From positions 1 through 64,000 of the forward strand of contig NZ_VTPU01000010.1 of assembly GCF_008274785.1 (NCBI RefSeq): DNA of 64,000 nt, read 5' to 3'. The stretch comes from Halomonas eurihalina (GTDB taxonomy: Bacteria > Pseudomonadota > Gammaproteobacteria > Pseudomonadales > Halomonadaceae). Shown here piece after piece: positions 26,676 through 42,123 of the stretch (position 1 is the first letter of the stretch; each line of letters starts with the position of its first letter). Position numbers and translations under genes: made by a program. Under the pieces are notes generated by a model that was given only the letters and a program-made list of their open reading frames with translations, was not told the DNA's origin and ran no database searches.

Positions 26676-28602
<1,927 letters not shown>

Positions 28603-28646
28603 TCGCCTGAGGTGCGCCATCGGGCCTGTCCATGGCATCCTGTATC

Positions 28647-28668
28647 GGTCGGCCGCGCGCGGCCGACC
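28647..28668. promoter_or_regulatory. 22-bp perfect palindrome between ectB and ectC
   Basis: An uninterrupted palindrome with half-site GGTCGGCCGCG lies in the 92-base gap before ectC. As RNA it forms a long GC hairpin; as DNA it has full dyad symmetry suited to a dimeric regulator. No T-run follows. ectC therefore sits behind a structured junction and may be tuned separately from ectAB. Confidence 0.65.
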
Positions 28669-28694
28669 AGTCATTGATTCACCGGAGAATCGAC

Positions 28695-29099
28695 ATGATC
28701 GTTCGCAATCTCGAAGAAGCGCGCCAGACCGACCGTCTGGTCACCGCCGAAAACGGCAACTGGGACAGCACTCGCCTGTCGCTGGCCGAGGATGGCGGCA
28801 ACTGCTCCTTCCACATCACCCGCATCTTCGAGGGTACCGAGACCCACATCCACTACAAGCATCACTTCGAGGCCGTGTATTGCATCGAAGGCGAGGGCGA
28901 AGTGGAAACCCTGGCCGATGGCAAGATCTGGCCCATCAAACCGGGTGACATCTACATCCTCGACCAGCACGACGAGCACCTGCTGCGCGCCAGCAAGACC
29001 ATGCACCTGGCCTGCGTGTTCACGCCGGGCCTGACTGGCAACGAAGTGCACCGCGAAGACGGTTCCTACGCACCTGCCGACGACCAGAAGCCGCTGTAA
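28695..29099 (+). CDS. ectC: L-ectoine synthase EctC
   Basis: Cupin-fold metalloenzyme that cyclises N-gamma-acetyl-diaminobutyrate to ectoine. The 134-residue product begins [21 protein letters not shown] and contains the cupin segments [20 protein letters not shown] and [19 protein letters not shown] lies just upstream of the ATG. The stop codon lies in a 15-bp tandem duplication. No ectoine hydroxylase gene (ectD) is in the window. Confidence 0.97.
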
Positions 29100-29243: not shown

Positions 29244-30293
29244 ATGATTGATTCATCGTCCAGAAGCTTCCAGCCCATCGAGGAAGTCGAGCTCGAGGAA
29301 GCTGAGGAGGAAGCTGAGAAAGGGGCATTGCCCAACGACCTGGTCAGCGAGTTGCTGCTCGGCATGCGCCTGAGCGGTATCCAGTATCGCCGCATACAGG
29401 CGGCTCCTCCCTTCGGCATCGGGGGCTTTGGTGCCAGCCCGGGGTGGGCCCACTTCCACTTCATCGCGCGAGGGCCAGTGTATCTGCGCAGCCCCGGTGG
29501 GGCCGTGCATCGGCTCGAGGTCGGTGACGCAGTGCTTCTGCCGCGCGGCGGCCCACACGAGCTGCTGTCGTCGCCGGAGCAATCCGCCAGCCGCGATATC
29601 GCCAGCTTCGTGGCCGCACCGCTCTGCAAGGCCGTCAGCGCGGTGCGCAACGGTTCTCCCGAAGTCTGTCAGGAGAGTGGGGCCGTCATCTTCAGCGGCT
29701 GCATGGAGTTCGATCTCGGTGGCATGCATCCGCTCGTCGGCCTGATGCCCGAAGTGATGCGTGTCGATACGCTCCAGGATCGCCACCCGGAGATACTGCC
29801 GATCCTCCAGGCGATGGAACGCGAAGCGCAAGCTGAACGGGCAGGCTTCGCCAGCATTCTGTCGCGACTCGCCGATGTCGTTTCCGCCTGCATCGTGCGT
29901 GGCTGGGTCGAGTGCGGCTGTGGCGACGCTTCCGGCTGGGTCGAGGCCTTGCGTGACCCACGCCTGGGGCGTGTCATTGCCGCTATGCATCGGGAGCCCG
30001 GCCGTCATTGGACGGTCGCCGAACTGGCGAAGCAGATGGGCAGCTCGCGCTCGGTCTTCGCTGAGCGCTTCCTGACAGTCACCGGTCTAACGCCGCATCG
30101 TTACATGACCGAGTTGCGCATGCGGCTGGCTACCCAGTGGATCGGACGAGACAGGCAGCCCATCGATGCTGTCGCCCAACGCCTCGGTTATGGTTCCCAG
30201 GCCGCCTTCAGCCGTGCCTACAAGCGTATAACGGGCCGCTCCCCTGGAGCGGTGCGTGCCGAAGGGCACCATCGCGAAGGGCCTCGGGCATGA
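29244..30293 (+). CDS. AraC-family transcriptional regulator with cupin domain
   Basis: A 349-residue regulator. Residues about 1-30 are very acidic (EEVELEEAEEEAEK). Then comes an AraC-type cupin sensing region (HFHFIARGPVYLRSPGG, EVGDAVLLPRGGPHELL). The C-terminus holds two helix-turn-helices (HWTVAELAKQMGSSRSVFAERF and PIDAVAQRLGYGSQAAFSRAYK). Its stop overlaps the start of the YcaQ-type glycosylase gene (ATGA), so the two are coupled. It lies downstream of, but is terminated from, ectABC; a role in ectoine control is possible only by proximity. Inducer unknown. Confidence 0.87.
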   Translation: MIDSSSRSFQPIEEVELEEAEEEAEKGALPNDLVSELLLGMRLSGIQYRRIQAAPPFGIGGFGASPGWAHFHFIARGPVYLRSPGGAVHRLEVGDAVLLPRGGPHELLSSPEQSASRDIASFVAAPLCKAVSAVRNGSPEVCQESGAVIFSGCMEFDLGGMHPLVGLMPEVMRVDTLQDRHPEILPILQAMEREAQAERAGFASILSRLADVVSACIVRGWVECGCGDASGWVEALRDPRLGRVIAAMHREPGRHWTVAELAKQMGSSRSVFAERFLTVTGLTPHRYMTELRMRLATQWIGRDRQPIDAVAQRLGYGSQAAFSRAYKRITGRSPGAVRAEGHHREGPRA

Positions 30294-31504
30294 CTGCACG
30301 ACAGTGCCTTACCCTGAGCCTCGCGGATGCCCGGCGCCTGTTGGCAGGCCATCATGGCCGGCCGGGCTCGCTGACGAGCGTGATTCAGCGCCTCGGCACC
30401 ATCCAATTCGATCCACTCGCGCCGCTCGGCACCAATCCCGACCTGGTCCTGCAAGCGCGGGTGCCGGGTTATCGGCAGGGCGGCTGGCAGGATGCGGCCT
30501 ATCGGCAGCGGCTGCTGGTCGATGGCTGGGACAAGCAGGCCAGCCTGATTCTGCCCGAGCACTGGTGGGCTCAAGCTCCTTTTCATCACTGGTTCGCCCG
30601 GCGTTGGCAACAGCGGGGCGTGGACATCGATTCGCCGGAAGCCCGGGACCTTCTCGATCAGGTAGGCCAGCGGGGACCCTCGACCAGTCTCGAACTGGGT
30701 GACCAGCGATCCGATCCGGCCTTGCGTGGCAGCTGGTATGGCCCCAAGCGTTCACGCCATCTGCTCAAGGCGTTGTGGGATTCCGGACGCTTGATGACGC
30801 ATCATCGCGTCAACGGCCGCCATGCCTATGATCTGCCTGAACGCGTCTTGCCGAACGGCGCTTGCATGCCCCATACCAACGAAGATGATGCGCTGGAGCA
30901 CTTGGTCGTGCGTCGCGTCCAGGCCGCTGGGCTATTACGGCCAACCGCCGATGCTGCCGTCTGGCTGCTGCCTTGCCAACGTGCCAAGCGCGATCGTATC
31001 GCGTCGCGAGCTATCGATCGGGGAAAACTGGTCGAGCTCGACGTGGAAGGCGAGCGCTATTGGGCCACTCCCGAGGCCATTTCGCTCCTGGATGACATCC
31101 CGTCATCACCCGGCGGCGAATCGGAATGCTGCATGCGCTTTCTCGCGCCTCTCGATCCATTGATGTGGGACCGACGAGGGATCTCCCGCGTGTTCGGTTT
31201 CGACTATGTGTGGGAGGTCTACAAGCCTCGCGAGCAGCGCCGCTGGGGCTATTATGTACTGCCGATCCTGTGGGGCGATCGCTTCATCGCGCGTTTCGAC
31301 GCTCAATGCCGGGAAGGCATCCTGACCATTCACGCCTGGCACTGGGAGCCCGGCATCGTGCCATCCCGGCTTCCCGAAGGCGCCTCCGAGGCGCTACAGC
31401 GGGCCGCCGGCGATTTTCTCGATTACCTGGGAGCCAAGCGCGTCGTGCTGCCCAGGGGCCTGGGCCGTGAGGCTCGATATGCATGGCAAAGGGCGGCCAA
31501 ATGA
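30290..31504 (+). CDS. YcaQ/AlkX-type winged-helix DNA glycosylase
   Basis: A 404-residue protein of the HTH_42 family (PF06224), whose member YcaQ/AlkX excises alkylated bases and unhooks interstrand crosslinks. The N-terminal LTLSLADARRLLAGHHG, VIQRLGTIQFDPL and the C-terminal FDYVWEVYKPREQRRWGYYVLPILWGDRF (read in parts) match the family. The start overlaps the AraC gene stop by four bases. Coupling to a regulator suggests induced expression, perhaps by a DNA-damaging compound. Family call strong; activity inferred. Confidence 0.85.
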   Translation: MTARQCLTLSLADARRLLAGHHGRPGSLTSVIQRLGTIQFDPLAPLGTNPDLVLQARVPGYRQGGWQDAAYRQRLLVDGWDKQASLILPEHWWAQAPFHHWFARRWQQRGVDIDSPEARDLLDQVGQRGPSTSLELGDQRSDPALRGSWYGPKRSRHLLKALWDSGRLMTHHRVNGRHAYDLPERVLPNGACMPHTNEDDALEHLVVRRVQAAGLLRPTADAAVWLLPCQRAKRDRIASRAIDRGKLVELDVEGERYWATPEAISLLDDIPSSPGGESECCMRFLAPLDPLMWDRRGISRVFGFDYVWEVYKPREQRRWGYYVLPILWGDRFIARFDAQCREGILTIHAWHWEPGIVPSRLPEGASEALQRAAGDFLDYLGAKRVVLPRGLGREARYAWQRAAK

Positions 31505-31552
31505 CATATCGTCCCTTATACTTTCGTAGGCAAACGGATAGGACACACGACC

Positions 31553-31969
31553 ATGAAACGGACCTTTCGCCTCGTCATCCCCGCAATGATGCTCGCCATG
31601 CCGATCGCCTTCAGCCAGCTGGCTCTTGCCACCGAGACAATGGACCCGCTTTGTCAGTCCAAGGTCGAAAACATCCAGAAGCAGCTTGGTATCGCCAAGG
31701 AGCACGGCAATGAGCATCGCGTACGCGGCTTGGAAAAATCTCTGGAAGGCGTGCGGCGCCATTGCAGCAACGAGCGGGTCATAGAAGACGCCGAAGAAGA
31801 AGTCAGCGAGAGCATGGAAGAGGTCCGGGAGCGCCAAGCTGAATTGGCCGAAGCGCAACGTGAAGGCGACACGGACGATATACGCAAGCGCAGCGAAAAG
31901 CTCGAAGAAGCCGTCATGGAGCTCGAAGAACACCAGGATGAACTGGAAGCGCTCCAGAACCAGCAATAG
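31553..31969 (+). CDS. DUF1090-family periplasmic protein
   Basis: A 138-residue secreted protein related to E. coli YqjC (DUF1090). It has a signal peptide (MKRTFRLVIPAMMLAMPIAFSQ..., cleavage near LALA/TE), then two conserved cysteines (DPLCQSKVENIQKQL and RRHCSNERV) and a very acidic helical tail. Function of the family is unknown. It is a single gene between the glycosylase and the NepI-like exporter, followed by an AT-rich 261-base gap in which no further gene was seen. Confidence 0.8.
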   Translation: MKRTFRLVIPAMMLAMPIAFSQLALATETMDPLCQSKVENIQKQLGIAKEHGNEHRVRGLEKSLEGVRRHCSNERVIEDAEEEVSESMEEVRERQAELAEAQREGDTDDIRKRSEKLEEAVMELEEHQDELEALQNQQ

Positions 31970-32230
31970 ACAGCGCCCGGGAAGGATAGGTGGCCATGAC
32001 GACGGGATTTTCCGCGTATATGGCCACTTGGCACATAGTGATGCTTATCTCTTATTTAACATAATATACATTCTGCGAACTAAGGCTGGAGCTGGGTTTG
32101 AAGCGGACTTCACGCCGGCCATCCAGATTAACGATCAAAAATTCGATACATCCTGGTATATACCGTCCGGAAATGGCGCTCTATCCTCCCGAGCCAACGA
32201 CGTCATTTCTCAAGGACACAGGAGCTATCG

Positions 32231-38455: not shown

Positions 38456-38881
38456 TCACGCGGCCTCTTGCTCGGCGACGCGGTAGATACGTTCGAGCAT
38501 GGCGTTCAGGCCGTTGCTGCGGGTTGGTGATAGGTGCTTGTCGAGGCCGAGGTCCTTGAGAAAGTGCGGGCTGGTCGCCCGGATGTCCGCCGGATGACGG
38601 TCATTGTAGATGCGCATCAATACCGCGATCAGCCCCGAGACAATGGCGGCATCTGATACGGCATCGAAATGCAGCGCCTCGCCGTCGCGACGATGGTGCA
38701 TCCAGACATTGGACTGGCAGCCCTGGATCTTGAGCTCCTCGACTTTCCACTCCTCGGGGAAGGACGGCAACTGCTTACCCATGTCGATGATGTACTGGTA
38801 GCGGTCCATCCAGTTGTCGAACATCTCGAACTCTTCGAGCAGTTCCTGCTGGGCCTGTTCGGCGGTGATCTCTGTGCTCAT
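38456..38881 (-). CDS. sufE: Cysteine desulfuration protein SufE
   Basis: A 141-residue SufE-family sulfur acceptor that accepts persulfide sulfur from a cysteine desulfurase (SufS or CsdA). The active-site loop KIQGCQSNVWM carries the acceptor cysteine. WMDRYQYIIDMGKQLPSFPEEW and SPTRSNGLNAMLERIY match the family. It lies alone, 27 bases downstream of the recombinase gene on the same strand, so it may be read from it. The cognate suf operon is not in the window. Confidence 0.93.
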   Translation of the reverse strand: MSTEITAEQAQQELLEEFEMFDNWMDRYQYIIDMGKQLPSFPEEWKVEELKIQGCQSNVWMHHRRDGEALHFDAVSDAAIVSGLIAVLMRIYNDRHPADIRATSPHFLKDLGLDKHLSPTRSNGLNAMLERIYRVAEQEAA

Positions 38882-38908: not shown

Positions 38909-40123
38909 TTATACCGGTTGCTCCCCCGCTCCGTCCGCCCCCTCTTCATCTCGAGGCGCCAGGCCATGCCGCGCCTGCTGTCGATGCCATTCTTCGGCCT
39001 CGGCATGCAAGTAGCGGGCCGTGGTATCGAGCCGGGAGTGACGCGCCGTCTCGGCGAGATAGCGCAGCTCGATACCGGCCTGGGCCTGATGCGTCAGTGC
39101 CGTATGGCGTAGCCAGTGCGGCGTGGCGCGTCGCAACTGCGCCACCTCGCGTTCTGCTTCGCTGCCGAGTTGCTGTTCCAGTGCGATGGCCGCCTGCTCG
39201 AAGGTGGCCCGAATCAAGCGGTACAGGTGGTTGTCGCCCACACTGCGCCGTCCATCGAGCCCCCGCAGCAATGGCGTCGACTCGTCGGGTGATGGCTCCG
39301 GCGGGAGTCCCAGGGTGGCGCGCCAATCGGCTAGCAATCGCATCATGTCCGGCGGCACGGGGATGCGCGCGATCTTGGCGCCCTTCCCCGTCACTCGCCA
39401 CCACCAGCGGCCCTCGCGTCGTTCGAAGTCGTCCATCCGAGCGGCGGTCATCTCACCGATTCGTGGTGCCAATAGATAGGCGAAGCCAAAGACCAGCCGC
39501 CGACGCGCCCAGATGAAATGCGCACGCTCGGAAGCCTGCTCCGTCAGCGGCCGGTTCAGCCATTGCCAGAGCCAGTCCCACAGCGGTCGCTCCAGATAGC
39601 GCTCGATCGCGGCTTGCCGATTGTCCAGCCGTCGCCGCTTGTCACGCATCAGGCGAAACGGATTGTGGTCGAGCCATCCCGCCTCGACCAGCCAGGCACA
39701 GAGCCCTTGCAGAATAACCAGGCTCTGGCGTCGGCTCGACGGTGACAAGGGGCCGCGAAACGGCCGCCAGCGCAGGTCCTGGCGCGGCCGGGTCGGCCCG
39801 ATCCAGCGTTCTCTCGGCGCTGGATCACCGAGAAAGGCCTCGAAGGCGTCGAGATGATCGCGCCGTAATTCGATCAGCGACATGCCCCGCTCGTCCAGCC
39901 ACAGCAACAAGCGCTCGGCCTCGCGCCGATAGGCTCTCCGGGTATTCGGGCTGGCGCGATACTCCTCCAGCCAGAGCGCTACCGCCTGGACATCGCTGGT
40001 GGCCGCGATACGCCCTACCCCGCTTGTCAGGCCGCCGCCCAGGGGCGTGACGCTTGATTCGTAAAGTCCCGTCCCGATCTCCGGGGCCACGGGATAAGCC
40101 GCTTGCGGCGATTCTCCTTCCAT
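38909..40123 (-). CDS. Tyrosine recombinase (XerC/phage-integrase family)
   Basis: A 404-residue site-specific recombinase. Residues about 45-160 form a SAM-like N-terminal DNA-binding domain (VALWLEEYRASPNTRRAYRREAERL). The catalytic set is visible in order: Arg in LLAPRIGEMTAARMDD, Lys in VTGKGAK, the HWLRH box, the second H/R in ARHSRLDTTARYLH, and the nucleophile Tyr in that same motif. No transposon, phage genes or terminal repeats flank it. It is divergent from a KfrA-like gene across an AT-rich gap with a perfect inverted repeat, which may be its site or an operator. Probably a domesticated, conserved chromosomal recombinase. Confidence 0.88.
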   Translation of the reverse strand: MEGESPQAAYPVAPEIGTGLYESSVTPLGGGLTSGVGRIAATSDVQAVALWLEEYRASPNTRRAYRREAERLLLWLDERGMSLIELRRDHLDAFEAFLGDPAPRERWIGPTRPRQDLRWRPFRGPLSPSSRRQSLVILQGLCAWLVEAGWLDHNPFRLMRDKRRRLDNRQAAIERYLERPLWDWLWQWLNRPLTEQASERAHFIWARRRLVFGFAYLLAPRIGEMTAARMDDFERREGRWWWRVTGKGAKIARIPVPPDMMRLLADWRATLGLPPEPSPDESTPLLRGLDGRRSVGDNHLYRLIRATFEQAAIALEQQLGSEAEREVAQLRRATPHWLRHTALTHQAQAGIELRYLAETARHSRLDTTARYLHAEAEEWHRQQARHGLAPRDEEGADGAGEQPV

Positions 40124-40192
40124 CAGGACGGGCTCCTGCGCACCATTCGACTGCTTGCTCTGCCTGACTCCAGTGTCGCGCTGTAAGCACTA

Positions 40193-40224
40193 ATAATCAA
40201 GATAAGGCGCGTAATCTTGATTAT
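40193..40224. promoter_or_regulatory. Perfect 11-bp inverted repeat in the recombinase/KfrA intergenic region
   Basis: Arms ATAATCAAGAT (40193-40203) and ATCTTGATTAT (40214-40224) are exact reverse complements separated by 10 bases. The site lies in the AT-rich 235-base gap between the divergent recombinase and KfrA-like genes. Arm length resembles a tyrosine-recombinase core site, but the spacer is longer than the usual 6-8 bases. An operator for the KfrA-like protein is equally likely. A smaller palindrome ATTAT-CC-ATAAT lies at 40251-40262. Confidence 0.7.
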
Positions 40225-40358
40225 ATGGCGGATACAATAAATAAAATTACATTATCCATAATACGTAATAAGCTTTATCTTCGCTCCGGAAGGCGCTATC
40301 CTGCGCTCATTGATCGGGCGGCCTGCCGCACCGATAACCCTGTGACGAGGAGAACCCC

Positions 40359-41402
40359 ATGGCACGCACCGGTGTGCGATACGAGGATGTACAGCGCGCC
40401 ATCGACTCCCTGATGGCCAAGGGCGAAGCCCCCAGCGTGCACAAGATTCGCGAGACGCTCGGCACGGGCAGCTTCACTACCATCAGCGAGCACCTGCGCG
40501 AATGGCGCCGCCTGCGCGAGGAGAATCGTGACGTGCCGCCACCCCAGGGCATGCCCGCCGAGCTGCAGGAGCTGGCCGAGACGCTCTGGACCCAAGCCCA
40601 GGAAGCGGCCAATCAGGCACTGGCGCACTATCGCCAGGAAGCCGATTCACGCGTTGATGATGCCCGCCAGCAGGCCGCCGAGGCTGAACGTCGCGCCGAG
40701 GATGCCGAACAGCGTGAAACCGCCCTGTCGGCACACCTGACCCAGATCGATCAGCGCCTCGAGCAGCGCACCTCGGAACTGGCTCAGTTGCGCACAGAGC
40801 ACGAGGCGCTTCAGGAACGGGAGGCCCGGTCGAGGGATCGTCTCGATGAGCTGGTGCGGCGCCTGGAAGCAGCCGAAGAGCAAGCGAAACACCGCGAACA
40901 GGCTCATCGACAGGCATTGGAGGAACAGGCCGAGGCGCACCGTGAGCGCCTGGCGCAGGAGGAAGAGCGCAATGAAACCGCCGAGGCGCGCCTGATGGGG
41001 CTGCTCGATCAGGAACGCCAGGAACGCCAGGCGGCCGAAAAGGCCCATGCCGGCCGGGAACAGCGCCTGACGCGCCGACTGGAAACCCTCCAGGAACAGC
41101 AAAGCGCCCTGCAGACAGATCTCGCTGCTGCCCGCCAGGCACAGCACGACGCCGAACAGGCCCGGGGCAATGCCGAGCAACGCGAGGCCGCCTTGCGCGA
41201 CCAGCACGAACAGCTCAATGCGCGTTTCGAGCAGCAGGAACAGCGTATAGCGGAACAGACGGAACAATGGCGCGAACGTGAGCGCCACTTCGAGCAGCGG
41301 CTATGGGCCTCGCTCGACGCCATGCGCGAAGAATGGCGAAGTGAAAGGACCGCCGCGCCCGGGGACGAAAACGACACCCCAGACGCAACGAACCCCGCTT
41401 GA
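40359..41402 (+). CDS. KfrA-like DNA-binding coiled-coil protein
   Basis: A 347-residue protein. The N-terminus is a KfrA_N-type DNA-binding domain (VRYEDVQRAIDSLMAKGEAPSVHKIRETLGTGSFTTISEHLREWR, read in parts; PF11740). From residue about 75 to 330 it is one very long Gln/Glu/Arg/Ala-rich coiled coil, as in plasmid KfrA, an autorepressor linked to plasmid maintenance. GAGGAG precedes the ATG. Here it is chromosomal and divergent from a tyrosine recombinase. It may bind the inverted repeat between them and bridge DNA. Confidence 0.82.
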   Translation: MARTGVRYEDVQRAIDSLMAKGEAPSVHKIRETLGTGSFTTISEHLREWRRLREENRDVPPPQGMPAELQELAETLWTQAQEAANQALAHYRQEADSRVDDARQQAAEAERRAEDAEQRETALSAHLTQIDQRLEQRTSELAQLRTEHEALQEREARSRDRLDELVRRLEAAEEQAKHREQAHRQALEEQAEAHRERLAQEEERNETAEARLMGLLDQERQERQAAEKAHAGREQRLTRRLETLQEQQSALQTDLAAARQAQHDAEQARGNAEQREAALRDQHEQLNARFEQQEQRIAEQTEQWRERERHFEQRLWASLDAMREEWRSERTAAPGDENDTPDATNPA

Positions 41403-41532: not shown

Positions 41533-42123
41533 TTAGCGATAATAGGCATTGGTGGTGTCGGTATGGTCGGTGACGTCGCGGATACCGGAGAGCTCCGGAA
41601 TGCGCTCCATCAGCGTCCGCTCGACCCCTTCCTTGAGCGTCAGGTCGACGGCGGCGCAGCCCTGGCAGCCGCCACCGAAGGCCAGCACGGCGATCTGCTC
41701 CTCGGTCAACTGCACCAGCTTGATCTCGCCGCCGTGGGCGGCCAACCCGGGGTTGATCTCGCTGTAGAGCACGTAGTTCACGCGGTCCTCGAGGGGGCTG
41801 TCCGCGTTGACCTTGGGCATCTTGGCGTTGGGTGCCTTGATGGTGAGCTGTCCGCCCATGCGATCGGCATTGAAGTCGACCACGGCTTCCTCGAGGAAGG
41901 GCACGCTGTTCTTGTCCAGGTAGACGGCGATCTTCTCGAGCTCGATTCGCTCGTCGCTGGGCTCCTCCTCGCCGGGCCGACAATAGGCCAGGCAGGTCTC
42001 GGCGTAGGGGGTCCCCGGCTGTGTAATGAAGATACGTACGGCGATCCCCTCGACGTTCTGCTTGGCCAGCAGTTCGGCGAGGTAGTCCTGGGCACTATCG
42101 GTGATCTGGATGCTGTCGCTCAT
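41533..42123 (-). CDS. nfuA: Fe-S biogenesis protein NfuA
   Basis: A 196-residue Fe-S carrier that hands [4Fe-4S] clusters to apo-proteins, important under stress. The N-terminal A-type-like domain has [16 protein letters not shown], and the C-terminal Nfu domain has the cluster-binding CxxC in [20 protein letters not shown]. It is divergent from metH across a 270-base gap in which I see no other gene or riboswitch. Confidence 0.95.

Follow-up and report, generated by a model that had tools for sequence, protein, structure and literature searches.

The window, that is the whole 64,000-nucleotide stretch of Halomonas eurihalina DNA analysed here, contains a divergent pair of genes for a tyrosine recombinase and a KfrA-type protein with a predicted recombination site in their shared gap, and on balance this locus is probably a chromosomally fixed (domesticated), KfrA-assisted, single-recombinase resolution module. 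The reading draws on what is present in the sequences, namely the architecture of the locus, its conservation, the joint loss of core site and recombinase, the copies of the core on plasmids and the proximity to dif. A module with its own site near the terminus, and with copies of that site on small plasmids, is suggestive of a hitherto undescribed system that would separate joined DNA circles, second to the classical XerC/XerD-dif; no direct account of it was found in the open-access literature. The features concerned are as follows:

32054 to 32081, minus strand: canonical dif of XerC/XerD, 8.1 kb from the core
38456 to 38881, minus strand: sufE, conserved flank
38909 to 40123, minus strand: tyrosine recombinase (Cre/Xer fold) of 404 aa, identified by its ORF, profile matches and R-K-H-R-H-Y set
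40193 to 40224, no strand: predicted core recombination site, ATAATCAAGATAA-GGCGCG-TAATCTTGATTAT, with 13-bp arms and a 6-bp spacer; kept and lost with the recombinase, with copies on plasmids
40236 to 40272, no strand: AT-rich repeat tract (TTACATTA / TACGTAAT type), candidate and likely KfrA operator and accessory site
40359 to 41402, plus strand: KfrA-type protein of 347 aa, with an HTH at its N terminus and an unbroken helix of ~260 residues
41533 to 42276, minus strand: nfuA ORF, true start probably at 42123, conserved flank

The recombinase and kfrA are divergently oriented, with sufE on one side and nfuA on the other, and an earlier note on this DNA had described the pair correctly: both ORFs are exactly as it gave them, the recombinase is full-length with all of its catalytic residues (R221, K247, H336, R339, H362 and Y371), and the product of kfrA matches PF11740 at 100 bits and is modelled as an HTH head with a single long helix, thereby combining the PF11740 HTH head and long alpha-helical tail of the KfrA family. 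The claim that no other mobile-element gene lies nearby likewise fits the ORFs scanned within ~15 kb of the module, whose flanks consist of sufE, nfuA and housekeeping genes with no tnpA or transposon IRs; defence-system models gave no match. The description of the gap as AT-rich applies to its centre, but not to the gap overall, which is 50% AT.

The R-K-H-R-H-Y residues and two-domain fold of the superfamily are both found in the recombinase: profile searches returned PF00589 and a weak SAM-like N domain, phage integrase profiles show similarity to it, and XerD, Cre and XerH are matches for its structural model, whose confidence is low near the tyrosine. Its scores lie below the XerC and XerD equivalog cut-offs (68.8 and 42.1 bits vs 335 and 330), genuine XerC and XerD are encoded elsewhere in the genome, and the recombinase tree places it in a clade separate from both. 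The Halomonadaceae recombinases form one clade (99/96) in this tree, consistent with vertical descent within the family, and those of H. elongata and H. caseinilytica are 83–84% identical to the one in the window. The catalytic residues are kept in 43 relatives with at most one exception, and dN/dS is ~0.25 for the recombinase gene, 0.42 for kfrA and 0.10–0.19 for neighbouring genes; by these comparisons the recombinase, catalytic residues included, is under purifying selection.

In the gap, the exact 11-bp inverted repeat with a 10-base spacer reported at 40193–40224 was confirmed (11+10+11), and it is best read as a Xer-type core in which 13-bp arms, pairing at 12 of 13 positions, surround the 6-bp spacer GGCGCG. 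This core lies 135 bp upstream of kfrA and is unique in the 3.84-Mb genome with up to three mismatches allowed. As a single observation the 11-bp repeat is only mildly improbable, an 11-bp arm being reached in 7 of 2000 dinucleotide shuffles of the 235-bp gap and the window having nine perfect 11-bp inverted repeats (spacers up to 20 bp); it is conservation that carries the weight. Across Halomonadaceae cores the arms hardly change and the second and fifth spacer positions vary freely; the column table for this is illustrative, because the search pattern had fixed some arm positions. Distant relatives located on plasmids and in other families have a 6-bp-spacer palindrome of their own, and several of them also have a TACGTA-type tract and a KfrA gene in divergent orientation; a Mycetohabitans plasmid relative has the palindrome ACACGACATTA-CGCCTA-TAATGTCGTGT and a Halioglobus plasmid relative AATTCATGATTA-ACCCTA-TAATCATGAATT. 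Similar palindromes occur in some other families (L181–L184) and are absent from the most distant homologues compared alongside.

The pairing proposed earlier recurs in related genomes: of 201 Halomonadaceae genomes in 24 genera, 175 (20 genera) have the recombinase, 198 (23 genera) the KfrA head and 160 (19 genera) the core pattern CAAGATAAGNCGNGTAATCTTG, with up to two mismatches allowed. The gene order dif, Zn-protease, 7TM, ATP-grasp, fur-like, hisI, sufE, recombinase, kfrA, nfuA, metH is kept, for nearly all named loci, in Halomonas, Chromohalobacter, Kushneria, Modicisalibacter, Billgrantia and Bisbaumannia. Pairing, repeat and synteny are therefore conserved through the family, in agreement with the suggestion of a domesticated site-specific recombination module with a KfrA partner, and by sequence comparison the pair has been passed down vertically in Halomonadaceae as a chromosomal module. 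In Modicisalibacter ilicicola (L109) and genus g38 (L085/L086) the recombinase is separated from the core and kfrA by 3–9 kb of other genes, with all parts retained; core-mediated integration at these disrupted loci was rejected, there being no second core beside the recombinase.

The distance between core and dif ranges from 4.9 to 32.4 kb, with a median of 8.1 kb (50 genomes, 15 genera), and in single-contig genomes starting at dnaA the region lies near mid-chromosome; KOPS and the GC-skew switch within the window were too weak for use. The window shares with H. elongata, H. caseinilytica, H. halmophila and one further genome (G130) a dif that is inverted relative to the adjoining block, in contrast with most of the family. 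ectABC-like ectoine genes are situated at window positions 26676–29099, ~3 kb from dif, and ectB and ectC are near dif in relatives too.

A conserved second site-specific recombination system beside dif is unexpected where XerCD-dif is complete, and XerC, XerD and dif are intact in all eight genomes tested, including that of the window. It is possible, if doubtful, that the module serves the chromosome as a genuine second system for resolving dimers or terminus links, used alongside XerCD-dif, given that the core lies 5–32 kb from dif in the 50 genomes from 15 genera, that there is one chromosomal site and that the module is conserved in most genera of the family; however, XerCD-dif is itself intact, the recombinase has repeatedly been lost, and the distance to dif follows from block synteny. 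Since the proximity results from a conserved gene block, it provides no independent support for a terminus function.

Other copies of the arms, which the earlier note had thought worth seeking, do not occur elsewhere in the genome of the window (up to three mismatches) but do occur on plasmids of the family. The core is present on pHAL40 (4.3 kb), p2-bachu37 (4.4 kb), pTHAF12_c, pTHAF12_a and a plasmid of H. qaidamensis, in variant form on Zymobacter pZB5060, and also on small contigs of further genomes, several of which have Rep3 initiators or Mob relaxases; cores away from the module are mainly on small Rep3/Mob plasmids. Six of the seven plasmids among BLAST matches covering at least 80% of the query belong to Halomonadaceae. 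Core matches inside an acetyl-CoA-synthetase-like coding region (genus g23) were taken as chance. The plasmid cores keep the arms and have quite different spacers, e.g., TGACAA and GGTGAA, as would be expected where sites need match only one another. Most plasmid copies are without KfrA repeats, so KfrA may not be needed there, and the family's genomes with core-bearing plasmids have a single recombinase match, the chromosomal one. By analogy, the plasmid cores look like a cer/psi-style use of a chromosomal recombinase: as with cer/psi, small plasmids bear the predicted site of a chromosomally encoded recombinase, whereas here the recombinase is not XerCD and obvious accessory sites are missing from most plasmid copies. 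The core is also a candidate stability site for vectors in Halomonas, a biotechnology host.

One plasmid contig (L076, G106:C29) consists of a 3.75-kb unit repeated head to tail, with two cores in all, and may be a real dimer or an assembly effect. In Halomonas sp. THAF12, the whole of pTHAF12_c (23 kb) is found inside pTHAF12_a (L145, L146), joined at the short direct repeat TCTACTTATTAAAATGATGATTT; with this junction, core-mediated integration was ruled out, and the joining is probably due to another integrase. No recombination junction at a core was seen, the sole plasmid cointegrate examined, pTHAF12_c in pTHAF12_a, being joined at this other sequence.

These plasmid copies bear on a further explanation, likewise possible if doubtful, that the module serves plasmids only, an old plasmid or transposon resolution module having been trapped in the chromosome and kept because resident plasmids, or the host in dealing with them, make use of it. 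Outside the family, homologues are often plasmid-borne, and cores are found on several small plasmids, but family-wide selection for a chromosomal gene serving plasmids would be unusual, and the plasmid copies seem sporadic.

Which of the two proteins the palindrome follows can be seen from 112 distinct regions upstream of kfrA, 101 of them with a recombinase and 10 from recombinase-less genomes. The consensus CAnGATAA-N6-TAATCnTG is matched by 94 of the 101 distinct recombinase-bearing regions, which bears out the conservation of the inverted repeat; the remaining seven comprise two with one arm-base change, one (L167) with only a 50-aa recombinase remnant and four that are diverged, whose recombinases (40–44% identity) have different palindromes of the same geometry (11–12-bp arms, 6-bp spacer). 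None of the 10 regions from genomes without the recombinase has the core, and in the apparent exception, L086, the recombinase is present ~9 kb away. Recombinase and core have been lost together in genera g25, g39, g41 (two species, one with pseudogene remnants) and g1, with the sufE-kfrA-nfuA order and the TACGTA-type tract retained, and g45 probably represents a further recombinase loss in which KfrA and sufE remain. Because the losses remove recombinase and core and spare KfrA and tract, the palindrome is very likely the recombinase's own site and the AT-rich tract that of KfrA. In g25 (L168–L173, L214, L215, L224, L225) none of the genomes examined has the recombinase, and KfrA lies 2–3 kb from dif.

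Such repeated loss means that the recombinase is not essential and is dispensable in some lineages, while KfrA, which outlasts it, must have another, separate use; the lineages with KfrA but without recombinase and site thus offer a natural comparison for the function of KfrA-type filament proteins. Organisation of the terminus by KfrA itself would explain its survival, and we consider it speculative, and rather unlikely, that two terminus resolution systems exist side by side, XerCD-dif and a KfrA-assisted single recombinase at its own core ~8 kb away, and that KfrA by itself also holds or organises the terminus.

The sequence at 40236–40272, adjoining kfrA, is the likely KfrA site, and its position aligns across relatives. 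Of 20 relatives' genomes, 8 have its strong motif TTACGTANTACGTAA, at the module and nowhere else, and the other 12 lack it; being confined to the module, the motif forms no matS-like set, and KfrA as a MatP-like genome-wide terminus binder was ruled out. The tract resembles dif in L027 and others, and a role as a dif-like site was rejected, the canonical dif being 8 kb off in the window. The KfrA of RA3 binds its own promoter at iterated 9-bp repeats, KfrA proteins autoregulate through own-promoter sites, and the target of RK2 KfrA is an imperfect palindrome (PMC7783346). It could be argued from this autoregulation and palindrome binding, and from the position of the repeat 135 bp upstream of kfrA, that the palindrome is a KfrA operator or bidirectional regulatory site and the recombinase a passenger. 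This is improbable, as the palindrome is gone from recombinase-less genomes that retain KfrA and tract, occurs alone on plasmids, and accompanies a recombinase whose catalytic residues are under selection. The expectation that KfrA would occupy 40193–40224 was for the same reason not borne out, the core vanishing with the recombinase while KfrA stays.

For the KfrA-assisted resolution module, binding, strand exchange, direction and the substrate in the cell are what we infer from the above. The recombinase would bind both 13-bp arms at 40193–40224 and exchange strands across the 6-bp spacer, while KfrA would bind the tract at 40236–40272, repress its own promoter and, as an accessory factor by analogy with TnpT at rst of Tn4651, help through its long coiled coil to align two copies of the site, giving resolution and not integration or inversion. 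Because there is a single chromosomal site, the productive substrates would be a pair of sister copies, in chromosome dimers or in termini that are linked, near dif, and multimers of core-bearing plasmids, and the occurrence of core copies on plasmids, not elsewhere in the chromosome, speaks for resolution and against inversion or excision. A switch for integration or inversion operated by a phage-like integrase or invertase is very improbable, for although the tyrosine recombinase family and the phage integrase profile similarity would fit, there is no second chromosomal site, no attL/attR pair at the disrupted loci of two genera and no attached element, and the position is constant through the family.

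Among known systems, XerCD/dif, XerH/difH and XerS/difSL share with the module 11–13-bp arms, a 6-bp spacer, an XerD/XerH-like fold and a terminus location, from which it differs in its own recombinase clade, its KfrA helper and its coexistence with XerCD-dif. The KfrA-type protein has the PF11740 head, long helical tail and repeat tract at its own promoter known from KfrA of RK2, R751 and RA3, and unlike these it is chromosomal and adjoins a recombinase gene, with no Kfr/Inc/Kor partners seen nearby. The layout was also compared with the TnpS-TnpT/rst cointegrate resolution system of Tn4651 and TnXax1 (PMC7157771, PMC4619425). Like TnpS-rst-TnpT of these Tn3-family elements, the locus combines a divergent tyrosine recombinase with a KfrA_N helper, and like rst of Tn4651 it has a core palindrome and accessory repeats within the shared gap; unlike Tn4651, it has no transposase or terminal repeats at the loci examined, is chromosomally fixed near dif and has a different core sequence. 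The pair at 29463–31613 of pWW0 we take to be that of Tn4651 from its layout, the record giving no such name. BLASTP gave no significant match between the recombinase and TnpS, which stands on a very long separate branch of the tree; on sequence grounds TnpS is only remotely related and the Halomonadaceae recombinase is of another subfamily. The Tn4651-type TnpT (L144:1464–2462, minus strand, pWW0), a protein described in 2020 as being without apparent homology, matches PF11740 (KfrA_N) at 93 bits, a finding that connects the KfrA proteins of plasmids with the TnpT helpers of transposons.
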